From positions 1 to 43,588 of the IMG/VR virus record IMGVR_UViG_3300031952_000036: DNA of 43,588 nt, one strand, 5' to 3'. The translations under genes were made by a program, and so were the position numbers. Within the stretch, counting starts at the first letter, position 1. Every line of letters starts with the position of its first letter. Positions 5,208 through 43,588 of this stretch are shown piece after piece. Origin of the DNA: a virus. Below the pieces are notes generated by a model. It was not told where the DNA came from. It did no database searches and was given only the letters and a program-made list of their open reading frames with translations.

Positions 5208-6737
5208 TTACCATTTATTCCTCTCGAATAGTATACCATCTATATATAGATCTAAAGTATCATTCCCACCTCCATCAGTGTTGTTTATGAAGTAAGTGTT
5301 CTCATCTCCTACTAAACCACTGGGGCTGGCTGAGACACTTGCACTTACAGAAGCAGATGGACTCCCAGAGATAGATGCGCTTGGAGATGCTGATGGAGAT
5401 GCAGAGATACTTTCACTCGGACTCGCCGATAGTGATGCAGAGACAGAAGCAGAGGGACTAGCTGACACTGATGCTGAAGGAGAGGCACTTATTGATGCAC
5501 TAGGAGATGCAGAGACACTAGCAGATGGACTAGCCGAAACGCTGGCACTAGGTGAGGCGGATATAGATGCGCTTGGACTAGCAGATACACTTGCAGAAGG
5601 GGATGCAGATATAGACTCACTAGGACTTGCACTGATACTTGCGCTGGGTGAAGCTGACACACTAGCCGATGGAGATGCAGAAATACTAGCAGATGGACTG
5701 GCTGAGATAGATGCACTTGGACTTGCCGACACGCTTTCAGATGGACTTGCGGATATTGATGCACTAGGAGAAGCTGATATACTCTTAGAGGGACTTGCAC
5801 TCATCGACTCAGAGGGACTAGCTGAGATAGATGCAGAAGGACTCTCGGATATAGACGCTGATGGAGACGCACTAACACTCGCACTTGGTGATGCGCTGAT
5901 ACTGGCAGAAGGAGATGCAGAAGGGCTAACACTAGGCGAAACACTTGGAGATACAGAGGGAGAGACGGAGGGACTGGCGGATGGTGAACTTACTACTCCA
6001 CTTATCCATATCTTTCTTGGTTGAATGAAACAATAAGGTTCGGCGTAGAGTTGTTGGATTTGATTAGCAGTTAGATCTACATTCCAAACTTGAACACTTG
6101 CAATTACTCCAGGAAAGAATAAATCAGGCGTTCCATTATTGTCTCTACATCCTATATTAAATGTTTCTGGGGTTCCTGTATTCTGCAAATTTCCTGTGGC
6201 AGCAGCACTTATCACAAATTTTCCATTTATATATATCATAACTAATGCGCCATTATAAACTCCAATAAGATGATACCATTTTCCTGAAACTAAAGGAGAA
6301 GTTGTGGTTTTTGCAGAAACATATCCACCATTGTATATTTCAAATCTCACTTCGTCTGCGTCTAATTGAATGAGATTATAATGGCCTCTATCTTTTCTTA
6401 CTATATTAAATTCTGCCCAACTTGTAGAACCAATTTTTACTATTGCACTTACAGTTAATTTGTTTCCTAATATGTCTAATCTTTTTCCATCAACGTTCCC
6501 ACAAGTTAGATAATCATTCGTTCCATCAAAATTAAAAGCTCTACCTTTTACAGTGGAAACCCAACTAGCCCCATTTATAGCGGTTGCGTTATAATTGTGA
6601 ACTAAATCTCTTGTAATGAGTCCGTATCCCTCATTCATCAGCCAACAGCCGACAAGCCCTTTTGATAGAGAATGTCCCCAATTTATCTGAGAACCTAATG
6701 GAGGTTTACTAACCCAAGGAGATATTATTCGTCCCAT
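5208..6737 (-). CDS. LamG/concanavalin-like virion protein with long Ser/Pro/Ala repeat
   Basis: 509 aa in three parts. Residues about 25-240 form a LamG/concanavalin A-like lectin fold: [49 protein letters not shown] and a final [20 protein letters not shown] are signature strands. Residues about 249-474 are roughly 28 degenerate octads ([17 protein letters not shown]). A short C-terminal piece ([20 protein letters not shown]) ends the protein. In the family, LamG domains bind carbohydrate or mediate adhesion, so this is probably a stalked surface appendage. The repeat is a good candidate acceptor for sugars made or transferred by the glycosyltransferases at 7656-9823. Confidence 0.75.
5316..5990 (-). 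repeat. Long Ser/Pro/Ala octad repeat tract
   Basis: About 675 bases coding for roughly 225 residues of SASPSASx units (24-base period) with occasional E, K, L or G substitutions. Synonymous codons are shuffled between units, so direct DNA repeats are short. The opposite strand is also open through the tract (an Ala/Asp/Glu/Leu-rich mirror frame), which is a by-product of the composition. Confidence 0.9.
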
Positions 6738-11672: not shown

Positions 11673-11695
11673 GTAAGTTCAATAATTGAACTTAC
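11673..11695. promoter_or_regulatory. 23-bp palindromic site, copy 1
   Basis: Perfect dyad: GTAAGTTCAAT, central A, then the reverse complement arm. It is flanked by TTTA on the left and GAC on the right. It lies in the 47-base gap between the genes at 11357 and 11704. No promoter -35/-10 pair is seen next to it and there is no U-tract, so it does not look like a simple promoter operator or terminator. Confidence 0.85.
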
Positions 11696-18659: not shown

Positions 18660-18682
18660 GTAAGTTCAATTATTGAACTTAC
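18660..18682. promoter_or_regulatory. 23-bp palindromic site, copy 2
   Basis: Perfect dyad with central T. Flanks are TTTA on the left and AAC on the right (GAC in the other copies). It sits in the 48-base gap between the TerL stop (18689) and the ATG at 18640. Confidence 0.85.
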
Positions 18683-21416: not shown

Positions 21417-21439
21417 ATAATTTCAAAGATTGAACTTAC
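21417..21439. promoter_or_regulatory. Degenerate palindrome upstream of P1
   Basis: The right arm ATTGAACTTAC is identical to the genome-wide palindrome; the left arm (ATAATTTCAAA) matches 8 of 11 positions. It is centred about 30 bases upstream of the P1 -35 box, a position suited to an activator or to a repressor acting by looping. Confidence 0.55.
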
Positions 21440-22468: not shown

Positions 22469-22491
22469 ATAATTTCAAACCTTGAACTTTC
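22469..22491. promoter_or_regulatory. Degenerate palindrome upstream of P3
   Basis: ATAATTTCAAA followed by C and CTTGAACTTTC. The left arm is identical to the one upstream of P1, and the right arm matches the genome-wide arm at 9 of 11 positions. It is centred about 44 bases upstream of the P3 -35 box. Confidence 0.5.
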
Positions 22492-22843: not shown

Positions 22844-22866
22844 ACAATTTCAATCTTTAAAATTAT
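22844..22866. promoter_or_regulatory. Degenerate palindrome near rightward promoter
   Basis: ACAATTTCAAT, C, then TTTAAAATTAT. In reverse orientation it resembles the ATAATTTTAA...ATTGAAATTGT variant of the dyad. It is about 30 bases upstream of the P4 -35 box. A separate single arm ATTGAACTTAT is at 22812-22822. Confidence 0.4.
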
Positions 22867-22894
22867 AATCAGAAAATATATTTTAAAATAACTC

Positions 22895-22989: not shown

Positions 22990-23012
22990 ATAATTTTAAT
23001 CATTGAACTTAT
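22990..23012. promoter_or_regulatory. Degenerate palindrome in P4 leader
   Basis: ATAATTTTAAT, C, ATTGAACTTAT: the right arm matches 10 of 11 positions. It lies about 65 bases after the P4 -10 box and just before the leader terminator. Confidence 0.5.
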
Positions 23013-23021
23013 AAAGAAGAT

Positions 23022-23054
23022 ACTCCCAATTTACAACGTTGGGAGTTTTCTTTT
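23022..23054 (+). terminator. Leader terminator/attenuator T3
   Basis: ACTCCCAA (23022-23029) and TTGGGAGT (23039-23046) form a stem followed by TTTTCTTTTG on the plus strand. It lies between P4 and the first plus-strand gene, so a transcript from P4 would end after about 120 nt unless readthrough occurs. The stem sequence is of the same ACTCCC type as T1 and T2. Confidence 0.75.
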
Positions 23055-25248: not shown

Positions 25249-25415
25249 ATGAGAAGATAGTTAGAGATACGGTAGTGGAGGTGTTACAAGAAGTGTTAGA
25301 CTCTGGATATGATTTAGGTGGGATGGGAGAGTATGGAAGTGGATGGAATGATAGAGGGGTGCAGATAAGAATGAAGGTGAGGGAGATGATGAGGAGGTGG
25401 AGGGGTGAAAGCTAA
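25239..25415 (+). CDS. Small helical early protein
   Basis: 58 aa. DIDEKIVRDTVVEVLQEVLD then a Gly-rich turn and a basic C-terminal helix (QIRMKVREMMRRWRGES). Starts 10 bases before the previous stop. Function unknown. Confidence 0.55.
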   Translation: MDIDEKIVRDTVVEVLQEVLDSGYDLGGMGEYGSGWNDRGVQIRMKVREMMRRWRGES

Positions 25416-25662
25416 ACCGATAGCAAAGAAAGTCGTAAGTTCAATTATTGAAATTACTAAAGTTACCAAAAACAATGGTAAGCCGAGTATGGACGCTAGG
25501 TCTCTATCTCTTCAGCAGTATCATACAGGAGTGAATGAGATGGGGAAGAAAGTGGAGGTGTTTGCACTGTCCTTATCTAATAATTTACTGAGTATTAAGA
25601 TGGCGTTGATGCAAGCGGTGGAGAGTGTAGAAAGGAAGATGAGGGAGAATAAGGAAACTTAA
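25405..25662 (+). CDS. Small protein whose 5' end contains a palindrome
   Basis: 85 aa from the GTG at 25405 (GAGGAGGTGGAGGG upstream). The palindrome at 25435-25457 lies in codons 11-18. If the site is regulatory, a later start such as the ATG at 25540 (GGAG nine bases upstream) is possible and would leave the palindrome in an intergenic gap like the other copies. The C-terminal helix is LSIKMALMQAVESVERKMRE. Start uncertain. Confidence 0.5.
   Translation: MKAKPIAKKVVSSIIEITKVTKNNGKPSMDARSLSLQQYHTGVNEMGKKVEVFALSLSNNLLSIKMALMQAVESVERKMRENKET
25435..25457. promoter_or_regulatory. 23-bp palindromic site, copy 3
   Basis: GTAAGTTCAAT, T, ATTGAAATTAC: one mismatch in the right arm (A for C). The flanks are GTC on the left and TAA on the right, so the asymmetric TTA/GAC flanks are inverted relative to copies 1, 2, 4 and 5. 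It overlaps the 5' end of an annotated frame. Confidence 0.8.
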
Positions 25663-25929: not shown

Positions 25930-26052
25930 ATGCATGAGAAAACAAGATTAGAAGCATTGGCTAAATGGATTAGAGAATATTTTGGGACAGAAAGTGCAAA
26001 GGTAATGATTAAATATTTAAAAGTAGAGGTGAAGAAATGCAAGAGAGTATAA
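25930..26052 (+). CDS. 40-aa basic protein
   Basis: AAAGGAGAGAGAT precedes the ATG. One helix (RLEALAKWIREYF) and a lysine-rich end (KYLKVEVKKCKRV). Overlaps the next start by 16 bases. Unknown function. Confidence 0.5.
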   Translation: MHEKTRLEALAKWIREYFGTESAKVMIKYLKVEVKKCKRV

Positions 26053-26411
26053 TTAAATCAGGTCTTTCTATTCATTGTCATCATAATATTTTAGTTGAGC
26101 ATTGCTATAATTATGACGAGAGAGTAGAAGCGATAAAAAGAGATAAACCCCGGAACGAACAAGAAATAAGATTGCGATTGTTTAAGCTTTTGCCAAAAGA
26201 AGCAATAGAAGAGTTACCGACTGCTTGGCGTAAGGCAGACGCTGAGTGGGATAAGGCATGCGCTGAGCGGGATAAGACATGCACTGAGCGGGATAAGGCA
26301 TACGCTGAGTGGTGTAAGGCAGACGCTGAGTGGTGTAAGGAAGGCCAAGAAATCTGGCATAAGAAATGGTGTGGATGTACGAATTGGAATGGAAATGAGA
26401 TTATATTTTAG
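26037..26411 (+). CDS. Protein with tandem AEWxKA heptads
   Basis: 124 aa. An N-terminal domain (SGLSIHCHHNILVEHCYNYD; LRLFKLLPKEAIEELP) is followed by five or six heptads of the type KADAEWDKACAERD (residues about 66-103). It ends in a compact CGCTNWNGNEIIF motif. Proteins with this layout, variable numbers of the same heptad and a Cys-rich tail are common in environmental phages. The 21-base DNA repeats are nearly identical, so the repeat number should vary between strains. Unknown role. Confidence 0.7.
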   Translation: MQESIIKSGLSIHCHHNILVEHCYNYDERVEAIKRDKPRNEQEIRLRLFKLLPKEAIEELPTAWRKADAEWDKACAERDKTCTERDKAYAEWCKADAEWCKEGQEIWHKKWCGCTNWNGNEIIF

Positions 26412-29315: not shown

Positions 29316-29338
29316 GTAAGTTCAATAATTGAACTTAC
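29316..29338. promoter_or_regulatory. 23-bp palindromic site, copy 4
   Basis: Perfect dyad with central A, flanks TTA and GAC. It sits in the gap before the ParB-HTH-methyltransferase gene and is immediately followed by the hairpin at 29342-29369. Confidence 0.85.
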
Positions 29339-29341
29339 GAC

Positions 29342-29369
29342 GGGGGACTAGCGTGGATGTTAGTCCCCC
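29342..29369 (+). terminator. Hairpin next to palindrome copy 4
   Basis: GGGGGACTA (29342-29350) and TAGTCCCCC (29361-29369) form a 9-bp stem with a 10-base loop, followed by TCCACTTTATC. It lacks a good U-tract, so it is a weak or conditional terminator at most. It separates the recombination genes from the ParB-HTH-methyltransferase gene. Confidence 0.55.
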
Positions 29370-29397
29370 TCCACTTTATCAACAACAAGGAGAGAAG

Positions 29398-30675
29398 ATG
29401 AGGGTTAAGGTAGAGGATGTGAAGGTTGCGAACGAGAGGTTTCGAGAAGATTATGGGGAGATAGAGGAGCTGGCGGTGTCGATACAGAGGTATGGATTGC
29501 TGCATCCAATAGTCGTTGATGGTGAACTTAACTTGATTGCTGGTGAGCGTAGACTGAAGGCTCATCGTCTGCTGGGGATTACGGAGATTGAGGTGAAGCA
29601 GTTGAAGGAGACGACGGAGTTAGAACGTAGGGAGATTGAGATTGAGGAAAACCTTAAACGAAAGGACTTTACGTGGCAAGAGGAAGTGAAGGCGAAGAAT
29701 GAGATAGACAAGATAAAGAGGGAGCTATATGGAAGTGCTATTAAAGGACATGGGGGAGGGTGGAGTATACGGGACACCGCTGATAGTGTTGGTGATTCTC
29801 TTGGCACTGTTAGCCGTGATCTCCGACTTGCAAGGGCGATAGAGGAGTATCCAGAGATAGGGAAGGAGTTGTCGAAGGATGCGGCGTGGAAACGATATCA
29901 GAAGATGAAGGAGAGGGTGTTGGTGGATGAGTTGGCGGACAGGGTGAAGATTGAGATAGATACTAAGTGTATAGTGTGTGGGAATAATGAGGTGGAGATG
30001 AGGAGGTTGAAGTCGAACAGTGTTGACCTTGTGTTCACTGACCCTCAGTATGCAATCAATCTAGATAAGGACTTTAAGTCGATTGATGCGTGGGCAGGGA
30101 AGGTGTATAAACAGGATGATGAGGTGGAGAGGGTGATGAACAATATCTCCATCGTGGTGAGAGAGTGTTATAGGGTGATGAAGGATGACCGTCACATGTA
30201 CTTATGGTTTGGTATACAACATTACGAATATTTGTTGAAGATGATTAGGGATGCAGGGTTTAATGTTAATCCTGTGCCATGTATGTGGTATAAGACAGGA
30301 GGGGGAGGGGCGGGAGGAAGTGAGTATGCATATGCGAGTAACTATGAGGCGTTCTTCTTCTGTATGAAGGGGAGGCGTCCACTGAATAGGTTGGGGCAGA
30401 GTAATGTGTGGATGGAGCCGAGGGTGGCGCCTCAACGAAAGGTACATCCGACGGAGAAACCTCGCACTTTAATACGGAAGATTATTGAGCAGAGTACACA
30501 ACCAGGCGAATTGGTGATTGACCCGTATGGAGGGTCGTTCTCGACGGTGATTAGTGCGTTGGAGGTGAAGAGGAATGCGTGGGCGTGTGATATAGATAAA
30601 GAGTATTGTAGTCAGGGAATACTGCGTTTAGAAGAGTTGAGGAAGGGGGAAGTAGAAAGTGGAGAGGAAGTATAG
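29398..30675 (+). CDS. ParB/HTH domain fused to a DNA methyltransferase
   Basis: 425 aa from the ATG at 29398 (AAGGAGAGAAG upstream; a longer frame runs into the hairpin and palindrome). Residues 1-90 are a ParB/Spo0J-like nuclease fold with GERR (49-52) and an EIEENLKRKDFTWQE box. Residues about 122-145 are a helix-turn-helix (WSIRDTADSVGDSLGTVSRD). CIVC follows at 191-194. The C-terminal half is an N6-adenine/N4-cytosine methyltransferase with TDPQY (usual DPPY) and IDPYGGSFSTVI for SAM binding. It probably binds and methylates DNA at specific sites; the adjacent palindrome is a natural candidate. Confidence 0.85.
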   Translation: MRVKVEDVKVANERFREDYGEIEELAVSIQRYGLLHPIVVDGELNLIAGERRLKAHRLLGITEIEVKQLKETTELERREIEIEENLKRKDFTWQEEVKAKNEIDKIKRELYGSAIKGHGGGWSIRDTADSVGDSLGTVSRDLRLARAIEEYPEIGKELSKDAAWKRYQKMKERVLVDELADRVKIEIDTKCIVCGNNEVEMRRLKSNSVDLVFTDPQYAINLDKDFKSIDAWAGKVYKQDDEVERVMNNISIVVRECYRVMKDDRHMYLWFGIQHYEYLLKMIRDAGFNVNPVPCMWYKTGGGGAGGSEYAYASNYEAFFFCMKGRRPLNRLGQSNVWMEPRVAPQRKVHPTEKPRTLIRKIIEQSTQPGELVIDPYGGSFSTVISALEVKRNAWACDIDKEYCSQGILRLEELRKGEVESGEEV

Positions 30676-31221: not shown

Positions 31222-31446
31222 ATGGAAGTGAGAGTGAGGGATGTGATAATAAATGTGGATAGAGTAGTAACAGAACAAGATAAGGCGTTTTTGGAACATC
31301 AGGCGAATATAATCATAGGTTACTTTCTATCTAATGAGAGGTTGAAGAAGGTGGCGTATATAATGATGGCGGATGCGGGGGTGACGTTAGCGAAGTTGGC
31401 ACTGATGGAGGAGATGAGAGGAGAAGAGAATGGGAAGGGTGGTTGA
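31222..31446 (+). CDS. Small helical early protein
   Basis: 74 aa, GGGAGAGGAG before the ATG. EVRVRDVIINVDRVVTEQDK then helices. It overlaps the polymerase gene by 17 bases. No domain recognised. Confidence 0.6.
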   Translation: MEVRVRDVIINVDRVVTEQDKAFLEHQANIIIGYFLSNERLKKVAYIMMADAGVTLAKLALMEEMRGEENGKGG

Positions 31447-33820
31447 GTTTGAGGGACCGAGAGATGCGAAGATATATATTGTGGGGGAGGCACCTGGCTC
31501 GACGGAAGAGTTAGAGGGAAAGCCGTTTGTGGGTGGAGCGGGGCGGCTGTTGAATAGATTGTTGATGGAAGCGGGGTTGGTGAGGACAGAGTGCCGCATC
31601 GGTAACGTGATGAGAGTGAGACCTCCAGGTAATGATTTTGGTTACTTTTATGTGGATAAGCAGAAGCATATACCGAAACAGGAACTCCTTGATGGCATAG
31701 CATATTTGAAAGCAGACATTATGAGGTGTAATCCGAATGTGACGGTGGCGCTTGGGAATGAGGCACTTCGTGCACTGACAGGTGAGAGAGGGATAACGAA
31801 TTGGAGGGGGTCGATATTGTTCAACAAGGGATTAGGATGTAAAGTGATACCTACCATCCATCCTGCCGCTCTTCTCAGGTCTTGGAACAATATCCCTCTT
31901 GTTATGTTTGACTTTAAACGCATCAGAGAAGAATCGATGTCTGCTGAATATAGTTTAAGGAATAGAGAGTTTACTATTAGACCATCATTTGAGAGGGTGG
32001 TGAGTGAGTTGAAGACGTTTATGGAGATGAAGCCGAAGCTATCGTTTGATGTGGAGACGGATGAGGATGGACATATAACTGCTATTGCGTTTGCGCCTAA
32101 TCCGTGGTATGCGTTATCGATACCTTTCACTAATTCGACAGGGGCACCATATTGGAGGATAGAGGAGGAGATAGCAATATGGCAAGCTATTAAAGAAGTG
32201 ATGGAAGATGAGAAGGTAGAGAAGATTGCACAGAATGCACAGTTCGACATTATCATGCTCAAGATAAACCCATACCACACTGAAGTTAGAGGATTGGTGT
32301 TTGATACGATGTGTGGACATCACACGGTCTATCCTGAGATGGCGTCGAGTGAGTCGCAGGCGACGGGGAAGCATAGGATAGGTGGAGGCAAATCATTAGG
32401 TTTACTATGTTCTATATATACTAGACAACCATACTATAAACATTGGGGGAAGAGTGGGACGGATGAAGTGTTTTGGAAGTATAATTGTATGGATGCGTGC
32501 GTGACGTATGAATGTGCGGACGTCATCATTAGGGAGATGGAGGAGTTTGGGGTGAAAGGGTTCTATTATAAGTTGGTGCACCCATTGATAGAGATATTGT
32601 TGGAGATGCAGATAAGAGGGGTGAAGATTGACCAGACTGTGAGGGTGCAGGCGATGGAGATGTATGAGAAGGAGACGGTGGAGTTGCAGGCTAAATTGGA
32701 GGGGGCGTTGGGGAAGGTTATCAATGTGATGTCGCCAAAGCAACTTAAAGAGTTGCTGTATGATGAGCTTAATCTCCCACCTCAGTATAAGAAAGGGACG
32801 GCACAGTTGACTACAGATGAGGATGCGCTGGATACGCTGTCGACTAAGTTCAACTCACCTATATTCGACCTCATTTTGTCGATTAGGGGGAATAAGAAGT
32901 TGATAGGGACGTATTTGAATGATAAGGGAGGGGAAGATGGAAGGATGCGATGTTCATACGTCATTGGAGGGACTGAAACTGGCAGACTTTCTAGCAGACA
33001 ATCTGTTTTTGGAAGTGGAACAAATCTGCAGAATATTCCAAAAGGGGTGTGTAGGAAGATGTTCGTGGCTGATGACGGAAAGGTATTTGTTGAGGCTGAC
33101 TTATCACAAGCAGAAGCCAGGGTCGTTGCATATCTATCCGAGGAAGAGAGACTAGTCGATTTGTTTAATAGAGGAGTTGATATACATAAGCATGTGGCGG
33201 GGTGGATATTTAATAAACCTATTGAAGAGGTGACAACTGGGGATAAGGAGTCGGAGAGGGAGATAGCGAAACATCTCATCCACGCATCCAACTATGGTAT
33301 CGGTCCTAGGACGTTTAGTAAGGTGGCGGGGGTGAGTGAGAGTGAAGCGAAGGTGTTGTTGCAGAAATACTTTGATACATTCCCCCGGATTAAGGCGTGG
33401 CATATGAAGATACAGGCGGGATTGGGGAAGAATAGAACGATGGTGACACCGATGGGGAGGAAGAGGACGTTCTTTGGACTGTGGGGAGACCAGCTGTTTA
33501 GGGAGGCGTATGCGTTCGTGCCACAGTCTACAGTAGCGGATGTCCTCAATCTAGCGATGATTAGGTTCTGTAAGTTGAAAGAAGATGGGAGGTTGAATGC
33601 ACCTCCATATCAGGTGGGACATGGAATAGAGGTGATGTTGCAGGTACATGATGCGTTTGTTGTGCAGTGTAATAAGACGCATGTACAACATACGGTAGAT
33701 TGTATGAAGGAAGCATTCGACATCCCTCTGTTGATATTTGGGAGGAAGTTAAAGATACCTGTAGATTTGAAGGTGGGGGAGAACTGGGATGAGATGCAGA
33801 AAATTACCACCGATAGATAG
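31430..33820 (+). CDS. Uracil-DNA glycosylase / DNA polymerase A fusion
   Basis: 796 aa. Residues 1-170 match family 4/5 uracil-DNA glycosylases: GEAPGSTEELEGKPFVGGAG from residue 19 and HPAALLR at 144-150; the Fe-S cysteines of family 4 are not evident. Residues about 200-365 are a 3'-5' exonuclease (DVET 207-210, NAQFD 269-273, YNCMD 351-355). The polymerase domain has motif A EADLSQAEAR, motif B R610/K614/Y622 with His618 at the E. coli F762-equivalent position, and motif C VHDAF (usual HDE). It should be the replicative polymerase. Confidence 0.9.
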   Translation: MGRVVEFEGPRDAKIYIVGEAPGSTEELEGKPFVGGAGRLLNRLLMEAGLVRTECRIGNVMRVRPPGNDFGYFYVDKQKHIPKQELLDGIAYLKADIMRCNPNVTVALGNEALRALTGERGITNWRGSILFNKGLGCKVIPTIHPAALLRSWNNIPLVMFDFKRIREESMSAEYSLRNREFTIRPSFERVVSELKTFMEMKPKLSFDVETDEDGHITAIAFAPNPWYALSIPFTNSTGAPYWRIEEEIAIWQAIKEVMEDEKVEKIAQNAQFDIIMLKINPYHTEVRGLVFDTMCGHHTVYPEMASSESQATGKHRIGGGKSLGLLCSIYTRQPYYKHWGKSGTDEVFWKYNCMDACVTYECADVIIREMEEFGVKGFYYKLVHPLIEILLEMQIRGVKIDQTVRVQAMEMYEKETVELQAKLEGALGKVINVMSPKQLKELLYDELNLPPQYKKGTAQLTTDEDALDTLSTKFNSPIFDLILSIRGNKKLIGTYLNDKGGEDGRMRCSYVIGGTETGRLSSRQSVFGSGTNLQNIPKGVCRKMFVADDGKVFVEADLSQAEARVVAYLSEEERLVDLFNRGVDIHKHVAGWIFNKPIEEVTTGDKESEREIAKHLIHASNYGIGPRTFSKVAGVSESEAKVLLQKYFDTFPRIKAWHMKIQAGLGKNRTMVTPMGRKRTFFGLWGDQLFREAYAFVPQSTVADVLNLAMIRFCKLKEDGRLNAPPYQVGHGIEVMLQVHDAFVVQCNKTHVQHTVDCMKEAFDIPLLIFGRKLKIPVDLKVGENWDEMQKITTDR

Positions 33821-35682: not shown

Positions 35683-35705
35683 GTAAGTTCAATTATTGAA
35701 ATTAC
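35683..35705. promoter_or_regulatory. 23-bp palindromic site, copy 5
   Basis: GTAAGTTCAAT, T, ATTGAAATTAC with one arm mismatch, flanks TTA and GAC. Placed in the 52-base gap before the last rightward gene. Confidence 0.85.
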
Positions 35706-36980: not shown

Positions 36981-37087
36981 TTAACGCCTCTTATAATTCT
37001 GTCCATACACCTTACCAATATAATAGAGAAAGACACCAAACAAAGAACTAGAAATAAACCTGTGAGTGCTATACAAATGGTTGTCAT
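36977..37087 (-). CDS. 36-aa membrane protein
   Basis: It overlaps both neighbours by ATGA. Membrane helix LTGLFLVLCLVSFSIILVR then a basic end (CMDRIIRGVK). AAGGTGGAC upstream. An alternative frame over the same bases has no ribosome binding site and is rejected. Unknown function. Confidence 0.6.
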   Translation of the reverse strand: MTTICIALTGLFLVLCLVSFSIILVRCMDRIIRGVK

Positions 37088-40000
37088 TGTCCACCTTGTA
37101 GGTCTTTCTCAAAGTACTCTCTAAGAAATCGAGCTTCAGCTTCTGGGTAGAAGCGTCTAATTTGCCGCATCTGTTTCGGCTCGAGTCGACGGTGCATAAA
37201 CTCATCTAGAATATGACGAATGTCTAACTTGTTCTGTAGAATGACCTTCTTCGCCTCTTCCATTTTATTCTGGTGCATTAGACGATAGACTCGATTGTAG
37301 GCATCGGTTCTACTAAGTCTCTCTTCATATATTTGCTGACCCATCTGTCTACGTTCATTGGAGGTGGGTGTTTCGACACCGAGAAGCCAAGCTATCTGTT
37401 CAATAGCGTTACTCTTATACATTAGATTGCCTTCATCATCATAGACTAACCATCCTCTCTCACTGGCATCGAATACTCTCTGCATTTTATCAGCATACCT
37501 AAGAGGGAAGGTTCGAGAGAAGTGGTTACGGAACTTGTCCATCTCACTCTTATCACCTGTCAGCGCTCTAACCAACATATCCATCTCTTGAATTGGAGGG
37601 GAGATACCGAGGAGACCTTCTCGAAGTTGTCGATACTTAGGAATAATTTGACCGAATACATAATGACAGATGCCAGCCGTCACCAACATCTTCACTCCTC
37701 TCCACGCAGTCTGGTTCCATTTGGTATCGTGTCGTCCATATAATTGGTAAGACCAGAACTCTATTGTCTTCAAGGGGAAGGAAGTGAAGGGAAAGAGACC
37801 TCGATAGATGGGGTTTTGTAGGTAGGGTGAGTTACCGAACGTGCCATATTCATATTGGGTATGGAGTTCGATGAGTTTGGCGAAGTTGGACACTGATTGG
37901 TTGGAGATGTCGAAAGCAGCCTGGAGAGATTTAGTTGGAAGCGCGCCTCCTCTTCTCTGATATTCAATAGCCGCTAGATACGACGCACCTCTATTCACAT
38001 ACTCTGCCATCTTGAAGGGGGTCATAAGGATACTTGATGTAAGGTTTAGAACTTTGTCCAACGACTCCTTCCCTACCAATGGTCGAACATACTCTTGTAT
38101 TAACTTCTCATACTCCCTCATAACTGCATCTTCGTGTATCGTGTGGCGACCTTCTTTTGTTAGCAATTGTAGATAACCGATGGCTAGGTTTTTAGGTCCT
38201 ACTGTCGGCAATGTTGTCAATAACGTTTGGGAGAGGTTGCGAACTGAAGAGTCGATGGCAAAACCGAGCATCCGTATATAATACATAAAAGATAAGTCCA
38301 TAGACAGTCTAGATGGTTCGAGGATACGGAGGAGACTAGCTTTGTTACCGAACCTTGCGTAAGAATTGTTGAGCATATCATTGAAAGCTTTCTGGACGAC
38401 CCCTTTCTGTCCCATCACCTTCTGTGTCCATCTCACCGCATATGATTTCTTCCTCTCTGGCAGAGCTGCAATATATCGACGAGTCTCATCGAGAGCGGTG
38501 TCCATATGATACTTACGAAGTCCACCATACAAGTATGAACGAACAACACCCCAATAATCGGTGCGATATCCCTTTGTATTGTATAGTCTCGGTTGGAGAT
38601 GTCTCCACCATAACTCTTTCGGCACCAATCTCAACATTTCGTCTGGTATTGTCAACGTGTTCGCTATCTCTTTGATGGCTTGCCATCCAGACTGATTTAT
38701 CATTGCGTACGACTTTTTGGATAGGGAGCCATCCAGATAATCAGCGACCAACTGTTTCTGTTGATTGTCTAGTCTAGTTGTCCATCTCTGCCACACCCCT
38801 TTATCTTGATAGAAGATGTGGGGGAAGTAGCGAGAAATTATTCTCTCCTTAGGTATATCTAGTCGTTTGACCATCGGGTCGAAAACAAGTTCGTCGACTC
38901 TCTTTGCTATAAACTGTTCATCAGCAGATAGTTCATTGATGTCGATTAAGCCATCGGAATACTTCTGCAACATATCTGCTCGATGCGGTCTAGTCCGCAA
39001 TTCATTCAACTGTGCAGCTATCCCTTCCGCCTCCCTAATGAAGGTATCGTGGGCGGAGGAGAAAGGTTGCCAAACTCGAGGGATGACGTTACGAGGACCT
39101 GCTAATTGTTCCCACAAATAGATGTCACGTTCAGGACCTATCGGTTTATCTGTGGTTAGAGTCGATGGAGGTCCAACCTTTCCAGACAGTCGACGAATGA
39201 TGAGGAGGGCTTCGGAATAGGAGATGTCTTTGACGGAGTCTGTTCGTCCACCTGTGGTTTCACTGACTATTGTCCTGTAATCGGCGTCACTTATGCCATC
39301 TCTTTTCTTGATGATGTGGATGGCGGCTCGTTGTTTGCTACTAAGTCTAGGTTCGTTGACATCTTTCACTGGCTCACCTACATCGACTCCTTTAGAAGGG
39401 GTAGGGAGGACGGGAGGTTTGTCAATGACTTCCATAATGATGTCGCCTGGAAGTTCTGCTGGTGGCAATGGTTGGGAAGGTTGAGCGGGAGCGTCTCCTG
39501 CTTCTCTCATTATTGCACATTCTTCTCTAATAGGTCTGACAACGACGTCGAAGAGGCGCATTGCTCTCTCTTCAGCTAATCTATCATAGAAACTTTGTGG
39601 ATGTTGTGCTCGGCTACTTAATGCTCGAAATTCTGGTAACGCGTGTATAAATTCGTGAACTATCGTACCTTTTATAGAACCTTGACTACTTGACCATTCA
39701 GCAACAGGGTATTTTCCTGAACCTTTCCAGGCTTTCTCTGGTTCTACTCCTCTTGCAATTGCTGCTTTAGCTAAACTCTCTCTTGTTCCAGAAGGACCAA
39801 CTGAAAGGTTAATATAAATTCTACCTAAACCTCGAGGAACTTGAATTGTTGCGCCATGACCCATCTTGCTACTTTTATGATATCTCCACGTAATAGGGTG
39901 TATAATCCCCATCTCTCCCGCAATCGCATTCCCAACCTCTTCCAGAGATTTCTGGTCGACTATTCGCTGAGGATATTTGGAGACTATTTTGGAGACGGTT

Positions 40001-41154
40001 TCTTCTGCTATTGGTTCAGTCACGGTTGGAACCTCTTCTGGATAGATTTCCCTTAATGCCTCTCTTCCAGCCTCTACAGGATGAAGTGGAACCTCTTCCT
40101 TCGCCCTCATCTGTTCCTGCAACTTCTTCCCCAACTCTGTCTTAGCCGCCAACTCCAACACATCATCTATGTCATCTGCCTTCGATATAATCTGGTTCTT
40201 CACCGCATCCTGCATCACCTCTATCTCTTGCGGCGTCACTCCACTCTTCATTGCGTCGTCTATAACCTTATCTAGTTGAATGCCTCGACCAGACGTCAAC
40301 CCGCCCATTATCCCACCACTTCCAGCTCCAGCGATGAACCCTTCCACCATTCCTTCCGTCAACTGTCTCGTCTTGTCATATCCTAATTTGGCTATAGTAT
40401 TAGTCCACAGTGCTTGTAGCACTTCCTCGCTACCTTCTTGGACACCACCTATAAATATGTCTTTTACTAGTGTCTTAGAGCCGCCTCTCATAAACCTAGT
40501 CAACGGAATAACCTCTAACAGTGTATTTCCTACTGTCGATAACCCGCCTAAAGCAGATGACAATGCTACACTCTTTCCAGACTGTCTCGCTTCTCTATAT
40601 TGGAATGCTCCCTCAGGCAGACCTAGAGATGCAGCTCCAATGACTGGATTACCAGTTGCTATCGACACAACTGTCGCTGTAGCGAGGGATGGTATCGCTC
40701 CTGCTATTGTAGCGACTGCTCGTGTCCAAGATGGGTTCTGCATAAACGTTCCAGCAAACACGGTCGGGTCAGGCGCCTCCATCCCTTTCATTGATTGTTC
40801 CTGCCACCAATCTGCCGCATATCCTCCCCAATCCGCTATCTTCTTCGACACTCTATCATTGATGGACTTCATCTTGTCATTCCAAAGAGGATGTCTGAAC
40901 TGCCCGCTGGTCTCTCCTATCCACTGTGTCATCGCCCCTAATCCAGCCAGACTCTGTTCAATTCCGCGGAGAGGAGCTTTAGCGACTTCCTTTATAAAAG
41001 ACGGCTTTGGAATAGGAGTGGGTAGAGCACGACTACCTTCTATTTCTTCAGAATAGAAGTCTTGGGGCGTGGACTTCTTAGTAATCTCTTCTTCGTAATA
41101 GTCCTTTACACCAGTCGACTTTCCAATTATCTCCTCTTCATAGAAGTCTCTCAT
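37084..41154 (-). CDS. Giant internal virion (ejection) protein with metalloprotease motif
   Basis: 1356 aa. It starts with three repeats of a DFYEEEI-GKST type unit (residues 1-40). Next comes an Ala/Gly-rich hydrophobic region (about 140-290, membrane-interacting as in ejection proteins) and then GTIVHEFIHAL at about residues 496-506, a HExxH metallopeptidase motif, with a downstream AEERAMRLF that could supply the third ligand. Residues about 605-658 resemble the Mu GemA/gp16 type helical domain (KQRAAIHIIKKRDGISDADY). The long helical C-terminal half ends in charged repeats. It is probably carried in the capsid and released into the host at infection. Confidence 0.75.
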   Translation of the reverse strand: MRDFYEEEIIGKSTGVKDYYEEEITKKSTPQDFYSEEIEGSRALPTPIPKPSFIKEVAKAPLRGIEQSLAGLGAMTQWIGETSGQFRHPLWNDKMKSINDRVSKKIADWGGYAADWWQEQSMKGMEAPDPTVFAGTFMQNPSWTRAVATIAGAIPSLATATVVSIATGNPVIGAASLGLPEGAFQYREARQSGKSVALSSALGGLSTVGNTLLEVIPLTRFMRGGSKTLVKDIFIGGVQEGSEEVLQALWTNTIAKLGYDKTRQLTEGMVEGFIAGAGSGGIMGGLTSGRGIQLDKVIDDAMKSGVTPQEIEVMQDAVKNQIISKADDIDDVLELAAKTELGKKLQEQMRAKEEVPLHPVEAGREALREIYPEEVPTVTEPIAEETVSKIVSKYPQRIVDQKSLEEVGNAIAGEMGIIHPITWRYHKSSKMGHGATIQVPRGLGRIYINLSVGPSGTRESLAKAAIARGVEPEKAWKGSGKYPVAEWSSSQGSIKGTIVHEFIHALPEFRALSSRAQHPQSFYDRLAEERAMRLFDVVVRPIREECAIMREAGDAPAQPSQPLPPAELPGDIIMEVIDKPPVLPTPSKGVDVGEPVKDVNEPRLSSKQRAAIHIIKKRDGISDADYRTIVSETTGGRTDSVKDISYSEALLIIRRLSGKVGPPSTLTTDKPIGPERDIYLWEQLAGPRNVIPRVWQPFSSAHDTFIREAEGIAAQLNELRTRPHRADMLQKYSDGLIDINELSADEQFIAKRVDELVFDPMVKRLDIPKERIISRYFPHIFYQDKGVWQRWTTRLDNQQKQLVADYLDGSLSKKSYAMINQSGWQAIKEIANTLTIPDEMLRLVPKELWWRHLQPRLYNTKGYRTDYWGVVRSYLYGGLRKYHMDTALDETRRYIAALPERKKSYAVRWTQKVMGQKGVVQKAFNDMLNNSYARFGNKASLLRILEPSRLSMDLSFMYYIRMLGFAIDSSVRNLSQTLLTTLPTVGPKNLAIGYLQLLTKEGRHTIHEDAVMREYEKLIQEYVRPLVGKESLDKVLNLTSSILMTPFKMAEYVNRGASYLAAIEYQRRGGALPTKSLQAAFDISNQSVSNFAKLIELHTQYEYGTFGNSPYLQNPIYRGLFPFTSFPLKTIEFWSYQLYGRHDTKWNQTAWRGVKMLVTAGICHYVFGQIIPKYRQLREGLLGISPPIQEMDMLVRALTGDKSEMDKFRNHFSRTFPLRYADKMQRVFDASERGWLVYDDEGNLMYKSNAIEQIAWLLGVETPTSNERRQMGQQIYEERLSRTDAYNRVYRLMHQNKMEEAKKVILQNKLDIRHILDEFMHRRLEPKQMRQIRRFYPEAEARFLREYFEKDLQGGQ

Positions 41155-41762: not shown

Positions 41763-41785
41763 GTAAGTTCAATAATTGAACTTAC
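41763..41785. promoter_or_regulatory. 23-bp palindromic site, copy 6
   Basis: Perfect dyad with central A. Flanks GTC on the left and TAA on the right, so the asymmetric flanks are oriented along the leftward genes. It lies in the 45-base gap between two internal virion genes. Confidence 0.85.
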
Positions 41786-42635: not shown

Positions 42636-43439
42636 TTATATCTTAGGTAACGCTTTAACAGCACTTCCATCATATATTCTCACTCCACTATCATCAGCCC
42701 CTCCCGTGGCGATGAGTGGGATACCGTATGTGGTAGCGCCATTTCTAAACCTTAATTTATGTGTTGCTTCTAAGGGTAGAACTCCAATATTTGTTACTGC
42801 TCCACTTTTATATATACGTAAACCTTTATCTAAATAATATACTATAGTTAATTGATTATAGTAACTACTACCGTAGTCTAAGAAGTCGACAAGAGAGTTC
42901 TTTGCTTCTTGAGGAGGCCAATCCGCATACTTAATTCTATGGTCAGATAGTATAAACTGCATATCGTTTCCACTTACCCAACTTCCTCTATTTACTATCT
43001 CTTGAACTATAGTCTTTAATTCAGGAGTATCTCTTTCTACATTAGTGCCCCATTCTCCTGAGAGTTGCCACCTAACAGTAGCAGTCGTCTCCGCGAGAGC
43101 TATAAATGTTGTGACATCTGTGGGGGCTACAGCATCATCTACATCATCACCATGGATGTCAAAATCTATATCTACCCAAGGCATCTCTGGAGCACTACCA
43201 CCAGAACCTTTCATTGTAATATAAGCACTTATAATAGTAACTCCTTGGGGGATATTGACTCCTGTGTAACGCAAAGATAAGTTATATGTATCTTGTATGT
43301 AGTTGTCACCCTCAAGAGGATATGAAAAATAACCAAGGGACAAATAGTCATTTACCCAACCTTGAGTCCAAGGTATAGTTCCATAATGTCCCCAGTAGAG
43401 GCTAGTATCATCTGCTTCAGCGCCAATAACTTCATTCAT
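42636..43439 (-). CDS. Tail-associated beta-sandwich protein
   Basis: 267 aa. Contains TIISAYITMKGSGGS, a WVDIDFDIHGDDVDD segment, TPELKTIVQEIVNRGSWVSG and a final strand pair (LTIVYYLDKGLRIYKSGAV; GVRIYDGSAVKALP). The domain pattern is shared with many environmental phage and bacterial surface proteins. The ATG at 43439 overlaps the stop of the fibre gene (18-518) through the circular junction (TAATG). Confidence 0.62.
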   Translation of the reverse strand: MNEVIGAEADDTSLYWGHYGTIPWTQGWVNDYLSLGYFSYPLEGDNYIQDTYNLSLRYTGVNIPQGVTIISAYITMKGSGGSAPEMPWVDIDFDIHGDDVDDAVAPTDVTTFIALAETTATVRWQLSGEWGTNVERDTPELKTIVQEIVNRGSWVSGNDMQFILSDHRIKYADWPPQEAKNSLVDFLDYGSSYYNQLTIVYYLDKGLRIYKSGAVTNIGVLPLEATHKLRFRNGATTYGIPLIATGGADDSGVRIYDGSAVKALPKI

Positions 43440-43588
43440 TATACATCCGTCCTAAACCATAATCTTCCAGTTTGTGTACACCCAGTATCATCCGTCCTAT
43501 TCTCCACACACATCCCCTTAATTTGCATATTCTGCATATCCATATCATCCGCCGTCTTCATCTCCGTATCCCCACCATCCACCTCCCA
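43422..43588. repeat. Terminal direct repeat, right copy
   Basis: Second copy of bases 1-167 (A at 43462 instead of G at 41). Confidence 0.9.
43439..43588 (-). CDS. Partial second copy of the fibre-like gene 18-518
   Basis: The repeat carries the last 49 codons of the 166-aa fibre-like protein, cut at the window edge; its 5' end is absent here because it is the same gene seen at 18-518. Not an extra gene. Confidence 0.85.
   Translation of the reverse strand, partial: WEVDGGDTEMKTADDMDMQNMQIKGMCVENRTDDTGCTQTGRLWFRTDV

Follow-up and report, generated by a model that had tools for sequence, protein, structure and literature searches.

The window, by which we mean the whole stretch of DNA analysed here, is a virus record of 43,588 bases. 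Its two ends (1-167 and 43422-43588) form a direct repeat of 167 bp at 99% identity, which is consistent with terminal redundancy or a circular assembly and would fit a complete tailed-phage genome. Among its products are a P22-type portal, a large terminase, a fusion of uracil-DNA glycosylase (UDG) with a family A DNA polymerase (PolA; 31430-33820), a DUF3987 primase-like protein, a Sak4-like protein and a PD-(D/E)XK nuclease. In relatives the UDG-polymerase lies near the gene that is the subject of this study. A late protein of 1356 amino acids (37084-41154, minus strand) weakly resembles a virion RNA polymerase family (1e-4), and proteins of 1000-1850 amino acids occupy its position in relatives. 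Long repeats with a period of 12/24 nt are found in the gene for a Laminin_G_3 protein (5208-6737, minus strand) and at 2010-2200 within the open reading frame (ORF) 518-2821, and 21-nt tandem repeats lie at 26220-26360, inside ORF 26037-26411.

The gene of interest begins with an ATG at 29398, with AAGGAGAG upstream, and yields a product of 425 amino acids combining a ParB domain, a helix-turn-helix (HTH) and a DNA methyltransferase domain. This architecture had been put forward in the original prediction and is borne out by Pfam matches over cut-off, by an ORF with a ribosome-binding site and by an AlphaFold2 model. Its parts are as follows.

29398..30675, plus strand: ParB-HTH-methyltransferase gene (P0001, 425 aa); ORF with ribosome-binding site, PF02195 and PF01555 over cut-off, family alignments
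29410..29655, plus strand: ParB CTPase-fold domain, residues 5-86; Pfam, alignment of 53 relatives, matches to solved proteins
29734..29847, plus strand: ParB-type HTH, residues 113-150; AlphaFold2 model, weak alignment with the Thermus Spo0J HTH, covariation with palindromes
29968..30657, plus strand: beta-class N6/N4 methyltransferase domain, residues 191-420; Pfam, sequence and fold matches
30037-30051, plus strand: TDPQY motif, residues 214-218; sequence
30520-30543, plus strand: DPYGGSFS (motif I), residues 375-382; sequence

The N-terminal domain matches ParB_N (PF02195) at residues 5-86 with 34 bits against a cut-off of 26.3, and this part of the protein also gives profile matches to the sequences of solved Noc, ParB and KorB proteins; the score with the TIGR00180 parB_part model, 40.2 bits, is below its cut-off of 58.45. 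Across 53 relatives the residues R14, R16, R51, R52, E81, E84, N85 and R88 are invariant, and the majority of invariant residues belong to the ParB nucleotide boxes (box II, GERR; box III, ENxxRK). In the AlphaFold2 model, which has a mean pLDDT of 85.7, the recognition helix of the HTH spans residues 135-150, and the HTH of Thermus Spo0J can be aligned to this region weakly and locally.

The methyltransferase domain is recognised by N6_N4_Mtase (PF01555) at residues 209-406 with 95 bits against a cut-off of 26.7. Motif IV precedes motif I, the order of the beta class, and residues 191-420 resemble CcrM, M.HpyAVI and M.BceJIV in both sequence and fold. The TDPQY that had been pointed out in place of DPPY is present, and motif I is changed as well: the window protein and its nearest relative have DPQY for DPPY and DPYGGSFS for DPFAGSGS, whereas DPP[YFW] is found in 48 of 53 family sequences. 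The catalytic motifs DPP[YFW] and FxGxG are thus absent from the window copy, which has DPQY and YGGSF instead. Comparison with the nearest relative, G003, gives dN/dS values of 0.07-0.08 in both domains, with about 0.08 for the methyltransferase. Since both are under purifying selection, the methyltransferase domain must still be needed, though perhaps not as a normal enzyme. DNA methylation, one of the three functions offered in the original prediction, is plausible for the family, while in the window phage, with its altered catalytic motifs, it is uncertain. A CxxC noted earlier is indeed present at residues 191-194, but it is confined to the window protein and its nearest relative, so that we regard it as incidental and have dropped it as a candidate zinc site.

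Upstream of the gene, the perfect palindrome and the hairpin reported in the original prediction are both present. Counting this one, the window has six dispersed 23-bp palindromes of its kind, where shuffled sequences lead to an expectation of 0. The heptamer GTTCAAT is also enriched (18 against 7.1 expected), an excess due mostly to these palindromes. The palindromes (no strand assigned), the hairpin and four degenerate sites are listed below.

29316..29338: perfect 23-bp palindrome GTAAGTTCAATAATTGAACTTAC, 59 bp upstream of the gene
11673..11695: 23-bp palindrome, intergenic, immediately upstream of a minus-strand ribosome-binding site
18660..18682: intergenic 23-bp palindrome located downstream of the large terminase gene; position shared with G005, G006 and G012
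25435..25457: 23-bp palindrome with 1 mismatch, apparently within the 5' end of ORF 25405-25662
35683..35705: 23-bp palindrome with 1 mismatch, past the primase gene
41763..41785: 23-bp palindrome, intergenic, upstream of a minus-strand ribosome-binding site; same position in G005, G006 and G012
29342..29369, plus strand: strong GC-rich hairpin located after the palindrome and before the gene, lacking a U-run (region z -5.05)
21417..21439, plus strand: degenerate site in the early region, TATAAT box in left arm
22469..22491, plus strand: degenerate site, TATAAT box in left arm
22990..23012, plus strand: degenerate site, TATAAT box in left arm
22844..22867, minus strand: degenerate site with TATAAT box

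All four degenerate copies fall in the AT-rich early region, with the TATAAT built into one arm of each. A terminator-like hairpin, ACTCCCAATTTACAACGTTGGGAGTTTTCTTTT, lies at about 23014-23050, right after one of them. Two further ideas about the palindromes were set aside. They were considered as promoters for a phage polymerase, but they face both ways with respect to genes and no conserved downstream box is apparent by eye. An asymmetric outer flank, TTA on one side and GAC on the other, was considered as part of the element, but at two sites of the relative G003 the flanks are symmetric, with TTA on either side.

An exact-pattern search showed that the palindrome of the window recurs in other phages. 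Gene and window-type palindrome occur together in G003, G012, G014 and G015, the last of which was found through its protein. Two palindrome-rich contigs, G005 and G006, have no copy of the gene, and both are fragments missing exactly the gene segment; the expectation that relatives should not keep the palindromes while lacking the gene has therefore held. More distant gene-bearing phages (OP947158, G017-G020 and G021) are without the window palindrome and have odd-centred 23-bp palindromes of their own, that of OP947158 being CTATGTCCCAAWTTGGGACATAG. De novo scans of additional loci and full contigs revealed more dispersed palindromes, such as CTATGGGGAATTAATCCCCAAAG in G038 and the 20 copies in G033, with shuffled sequences at 1-3. 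Genomes with such palindromes have 4-20 of them, whose sequence differs between lineages. Sites are well conserved inside genomes, and half-site positions 1, 3, 4, 5 and 8 vary most between genomes. Counts by palindrome length reach their maximum at 23, and nearly all lengths are odd. The finder responded to 1 of 70 chromosomal control loci, these being bacterial contigs that were mostly ParB-domain matches from a profile search of genome contigs. As a positive control, a replicon carrying genes for ParA and ParB showed five dispersed 20-bp palindromes. This replicon (ON073792, labelled Aphanizomenon phage Yong-DA) also has a replication protein and polysaccharide genes, its palindromes are GTGTTCAGACGTCTGAACAC with one copy within parB, and it resembles a plasmid that carries parS-like sites in dispersed positions. 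Two long-branch relatives, L425 and L398, have dispersed 23-bp palindromes, of the GAAAGGTCAATAATTGAC type in L425, which may represent additional site classes.

The association between gene and sites was also apparent when loci were anchored on the polymerase gene. At least three palindromes were found at 15 of the 54 loci with a full gene and at none of the 14 without it (p 0.03), one of the 14 (L433, from G006) being incomplete and belonging to a palindrome-bearing phage. The remaining 39 of the 54 gene-bearing loci were under the three-copy threshold within about 12-22 kb. Scans of the cultured phages Mel-JY34 and VS-ABTNL-3, distant members with the same gene order, gave no dispersed palindromes, and counts in G031, G035, G045, G048, G052 and G054 were at control level. 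As several distant members have no site family, the sites are not claimed for the entire fusion family.

Analysis of 59 non-redundant protein-palindrome pairs proved informative as to which part of the protein may read the sites. Palindrome distance correlates with HTH distance above that of any other region of the protein, and the partial correlation, controlling for the ParB domain, the methyltransferase and the polymerase, is 0.364 (n=55; 0 of 2000 permutations); methyltransferase distance adds almost no prediction. In an unbiased scan of 382 columns, residues 139, 136 and 134 ranked near the head of the list for the inner core of the palindrome, and for the outer half-site 10 of the 20 top columns fell within residues 113-150 (p 3e-6). 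The inner core alone gave a weak enrichment of HTH columns (4 of 20, p 0.13). His135 is found in 9 of the 10 genomes whose half-site position 6 is G and in 1 of the 49 others (Fisher p 8e-9), a value that is uncorrected for kinship and is descriptive, since the residue was picked after inspecting the covariation table. On a tree from which the HTH was excluded, residue 135 and position 6 show about four concordant switches and none that is discordant, and an independent-pairs sign test gave 4 of 5 concordant (p 0.125), the switches being too few to reach 0.05. A pairing of half-site position 1 with residue 141 offered too few informative pairs. Through the weak local Thermus Spo0J alignment, residue 135 is equivalent to Caulobacter ParB position 173, which has been found experimentally to contact base 1 and which differs between ParB and Noc (PMC7383237). 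This match with a proven specificity residue is the strongest single piece of evidence for palindrome reading by the protein. Because palindrome sequence tracks the HTH and His135 pairs with G6, we consider that the ParB-HTH-methyltransferase very probably reads the dispersed 23-bp palindromes through its HTH. The original pairing of a reader protein with dispersed palindromes thus gains support, as palindromes are found in gene-bearing relatives and their sequence covaries with the HTH.

The placement of the sites is not random. In 15 genomes 87 of 110 sites were intergenic against 12.3 expected (p 4e-61), fractions that are approximate because genes were called by a simple script. Spacing was evener than under uniform placement (combined p 4e-9) and than under random intergenic placement (1e-19), combined values that overstate independence because the genomes share ancestry. 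Even spacing is not universal, G038 and G039 being exceptions under the uniform null. Gaps between sites are often 4-10 kb, and sites are denser in the early region.

It could be argued that a different phage protein reads the palindromes and that the ParB-HTH covaries with them through gene linkage only. The UDG-polymerase gene is indeed present in 41 of 41 gene-bearing contigs tested, and almost every one has the primase; however, the HTH-concentrated signal survives control for the polymerase and for the protein's other domains, and the top columns lie in the HTH and include a known ParB/Noc specificity position, which makes this explanation improbable. The palindromes might instead act as RNA, forming hairpins, terminators or processing sites, since they often lie in 5' leaders and the site can fold as a hairpin. 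Against this, 64% of arm mismatches (AA, TT, CT, AG, GG and CC) are beyond wobble rescue on either strand, so that the half-sites vary in the manner of a DNA site; there are no U-runs, and the covariation partner is a DNA-binding helix. We give a role as RNA hardly any credence.

The segregation role offered in the original prediction would imply a plasmid-like prophage with a partition (centromere) system, in the manner of phage N15, and a ParB reader, dispersed palindromic sites and a terminally redundant genome are all in keeping with it. No match to PF13614 (ParA) over cut-off was found in 20 contigs, the controls being positive in 14 of 14 and a single sub-threshold match of 39 positions occurring in G033; no tyrosine integrase was detected in 21 records in which positive controls were detected; and the canonical ParB model stays under its cut-off. 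Since ParA and tyrosine integrase are missing from these sets, segregation is unlikely and a prophage centromere very improbable. Greater weight attaches to a pure transcription regulator, similar to KorB or to the stoperators discussed below, with the methyltransferase domain as a dimerisation scaffold or vestige. In its favour, TATAAT boxes are fused to the degenerate early-region sites, several sites lie directly upstream of ribosome-binding sites, the methyltransferase motifs of the window are altered, and KorB, a clamp of the ParB family, silences promoters across distances above 1 kb (PMC11790492). Promoter control as a function, also offered originally, is plausible in view of the TATAAT boxes. 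As the whole explanation, a regulator seems rather unlikely: DPPY/F/W is kept in most relatives, the methyltransferase is under purifying selection even in the window, the majority of strong sites are away from recognisable promoters, and operators would not be expected to be evenly spaced across late operons.

Comparison with known systems helps to define what is unusual here. As in ParB-parS and Noc-NBS, there is a ParB fold with boxes II and III, a ParB-type HTH, palindromic sites, and a residue, 135, in the place of R173/Q173. The sites of ParB-parS and Noc-NBS are 16 bp long, whereas those of the window family are longer, at 23 bp, odd-centred, genome-wide and subject to fast turnover; in addition, the window protein has a methyltransferase replacing the C-terminal dimerisation domain, and no ParA was found in the 20 contigs. 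KorB with its OB operators on plasmid RK2 is a ParB-family clamp, as the window protein probably is, with operators both near and away from promoters (PMC11790492), but the window protein adds a methyltransferase domain and its site is 23 bp. The stoperators of cluster A mycobacteriophages are also numerous dispersed sites for a single phage-encoded protein, but they are asymmetric and are bound by a monomeric immunity repressor (PMC9283540, PMC6550527), whereas the window sites are palindromic, their predicted reader is of ParB type and no integrase was found; nor do they share the one-orientation asymmetry of stoperators, the TTA/GAC flank occurring in both orientations relative to genes. 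From CcrM, M.HpyAVI and M.BceJIV, which it otherwise resembles, the window enzyme differs in its fusion to a predicted sequence-specific ParB reader and in its altered catalytic motifs. Close counterparts are also the phage fusions of a ParB CTPase fold with N6_N4_Mtase, having the same PF02195 and PF01555 combination in one protein; the accessible text of Kaljevic et al. 2025 (PMC12704722) presents them as phage-enriched, of unknown function and perhaps anti-defence, and describes no cognate DNA sites for them, where the window family adds a ParB-type HTH and genome-wide palindromes. The union of reader and enzyme in one protein is consequently not the unusual coincidence it had been taken for, such fusions being already known in phages. 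We found no prior report in the open-access literature of dispersed DNA sites for them, and genome-wide cognate sites are apparently unreported.

Relatives of ParB serve as sliding clamps during segregation and, in the form of KorB, for silencing at long range (PMC11790492). A similar course of events can be proposed for the protein described here. The HTH would read the 23-bp palindromes, presumably as a dimer with one HTH per half-site. Nucleotide binding would then close the ParB domain and free it to move off its docking site along several kb of DNA; with a site every few kb, the entire phage genome could be covered. We think closing and spreading of this kind probable, because the residues of ParB boxes II and III are invariant, although the nucleotide of a ParB-fold protein may be ATP or GTP rather than CTP, and there may be no detectable nucleotide binding at all (PMC12704722). 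In most relatives the methyltransferase may finally modify the phage DNA passed over, so that modification would be addressed to the phage's own genome, a step for which the chances seem slightly short of even. The window phage, in which two catalytic motifs are changed, may depend chiefly on coating and on promoter control; the TATAAT boxes fused to degenerate sites suggest that early promoters are occluded by the protein as well. Taken as far as spreading, together with at least one of these final outcomes, a ParA-less ParB-family clamp joined to a methyltransferase is the reading we lean towards, if only modestly. The most specific version, in which a nucleotide-gated ParB clamp loads the methyltransferase at the palindromes and slides it between them, the sites target the modification instead of the short recognition motif of the enzyme doing so alone, and specificity switches jointly in reader and site as the phages diverge, is put forward tentatively.

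The joint change of reader and palindromes over dozens of related phages points to self-contained recognition by these phages of their own DNA, probably for marking or control. A cognate set of DNA sites can now be proposed as the substrate of phage ParB-fold/methyltransferase fusions that had been reported without a known function, and in many phages of the group the docking sequence can be read from the genome alone. The dozens of natural reader-site pairs offer material on how ParB-type specificity evolves, including a candidate rule of one residue and one base. A clamp that does carry the methyltransferase along DNA would represent a novel means of directing DNA modification to self.
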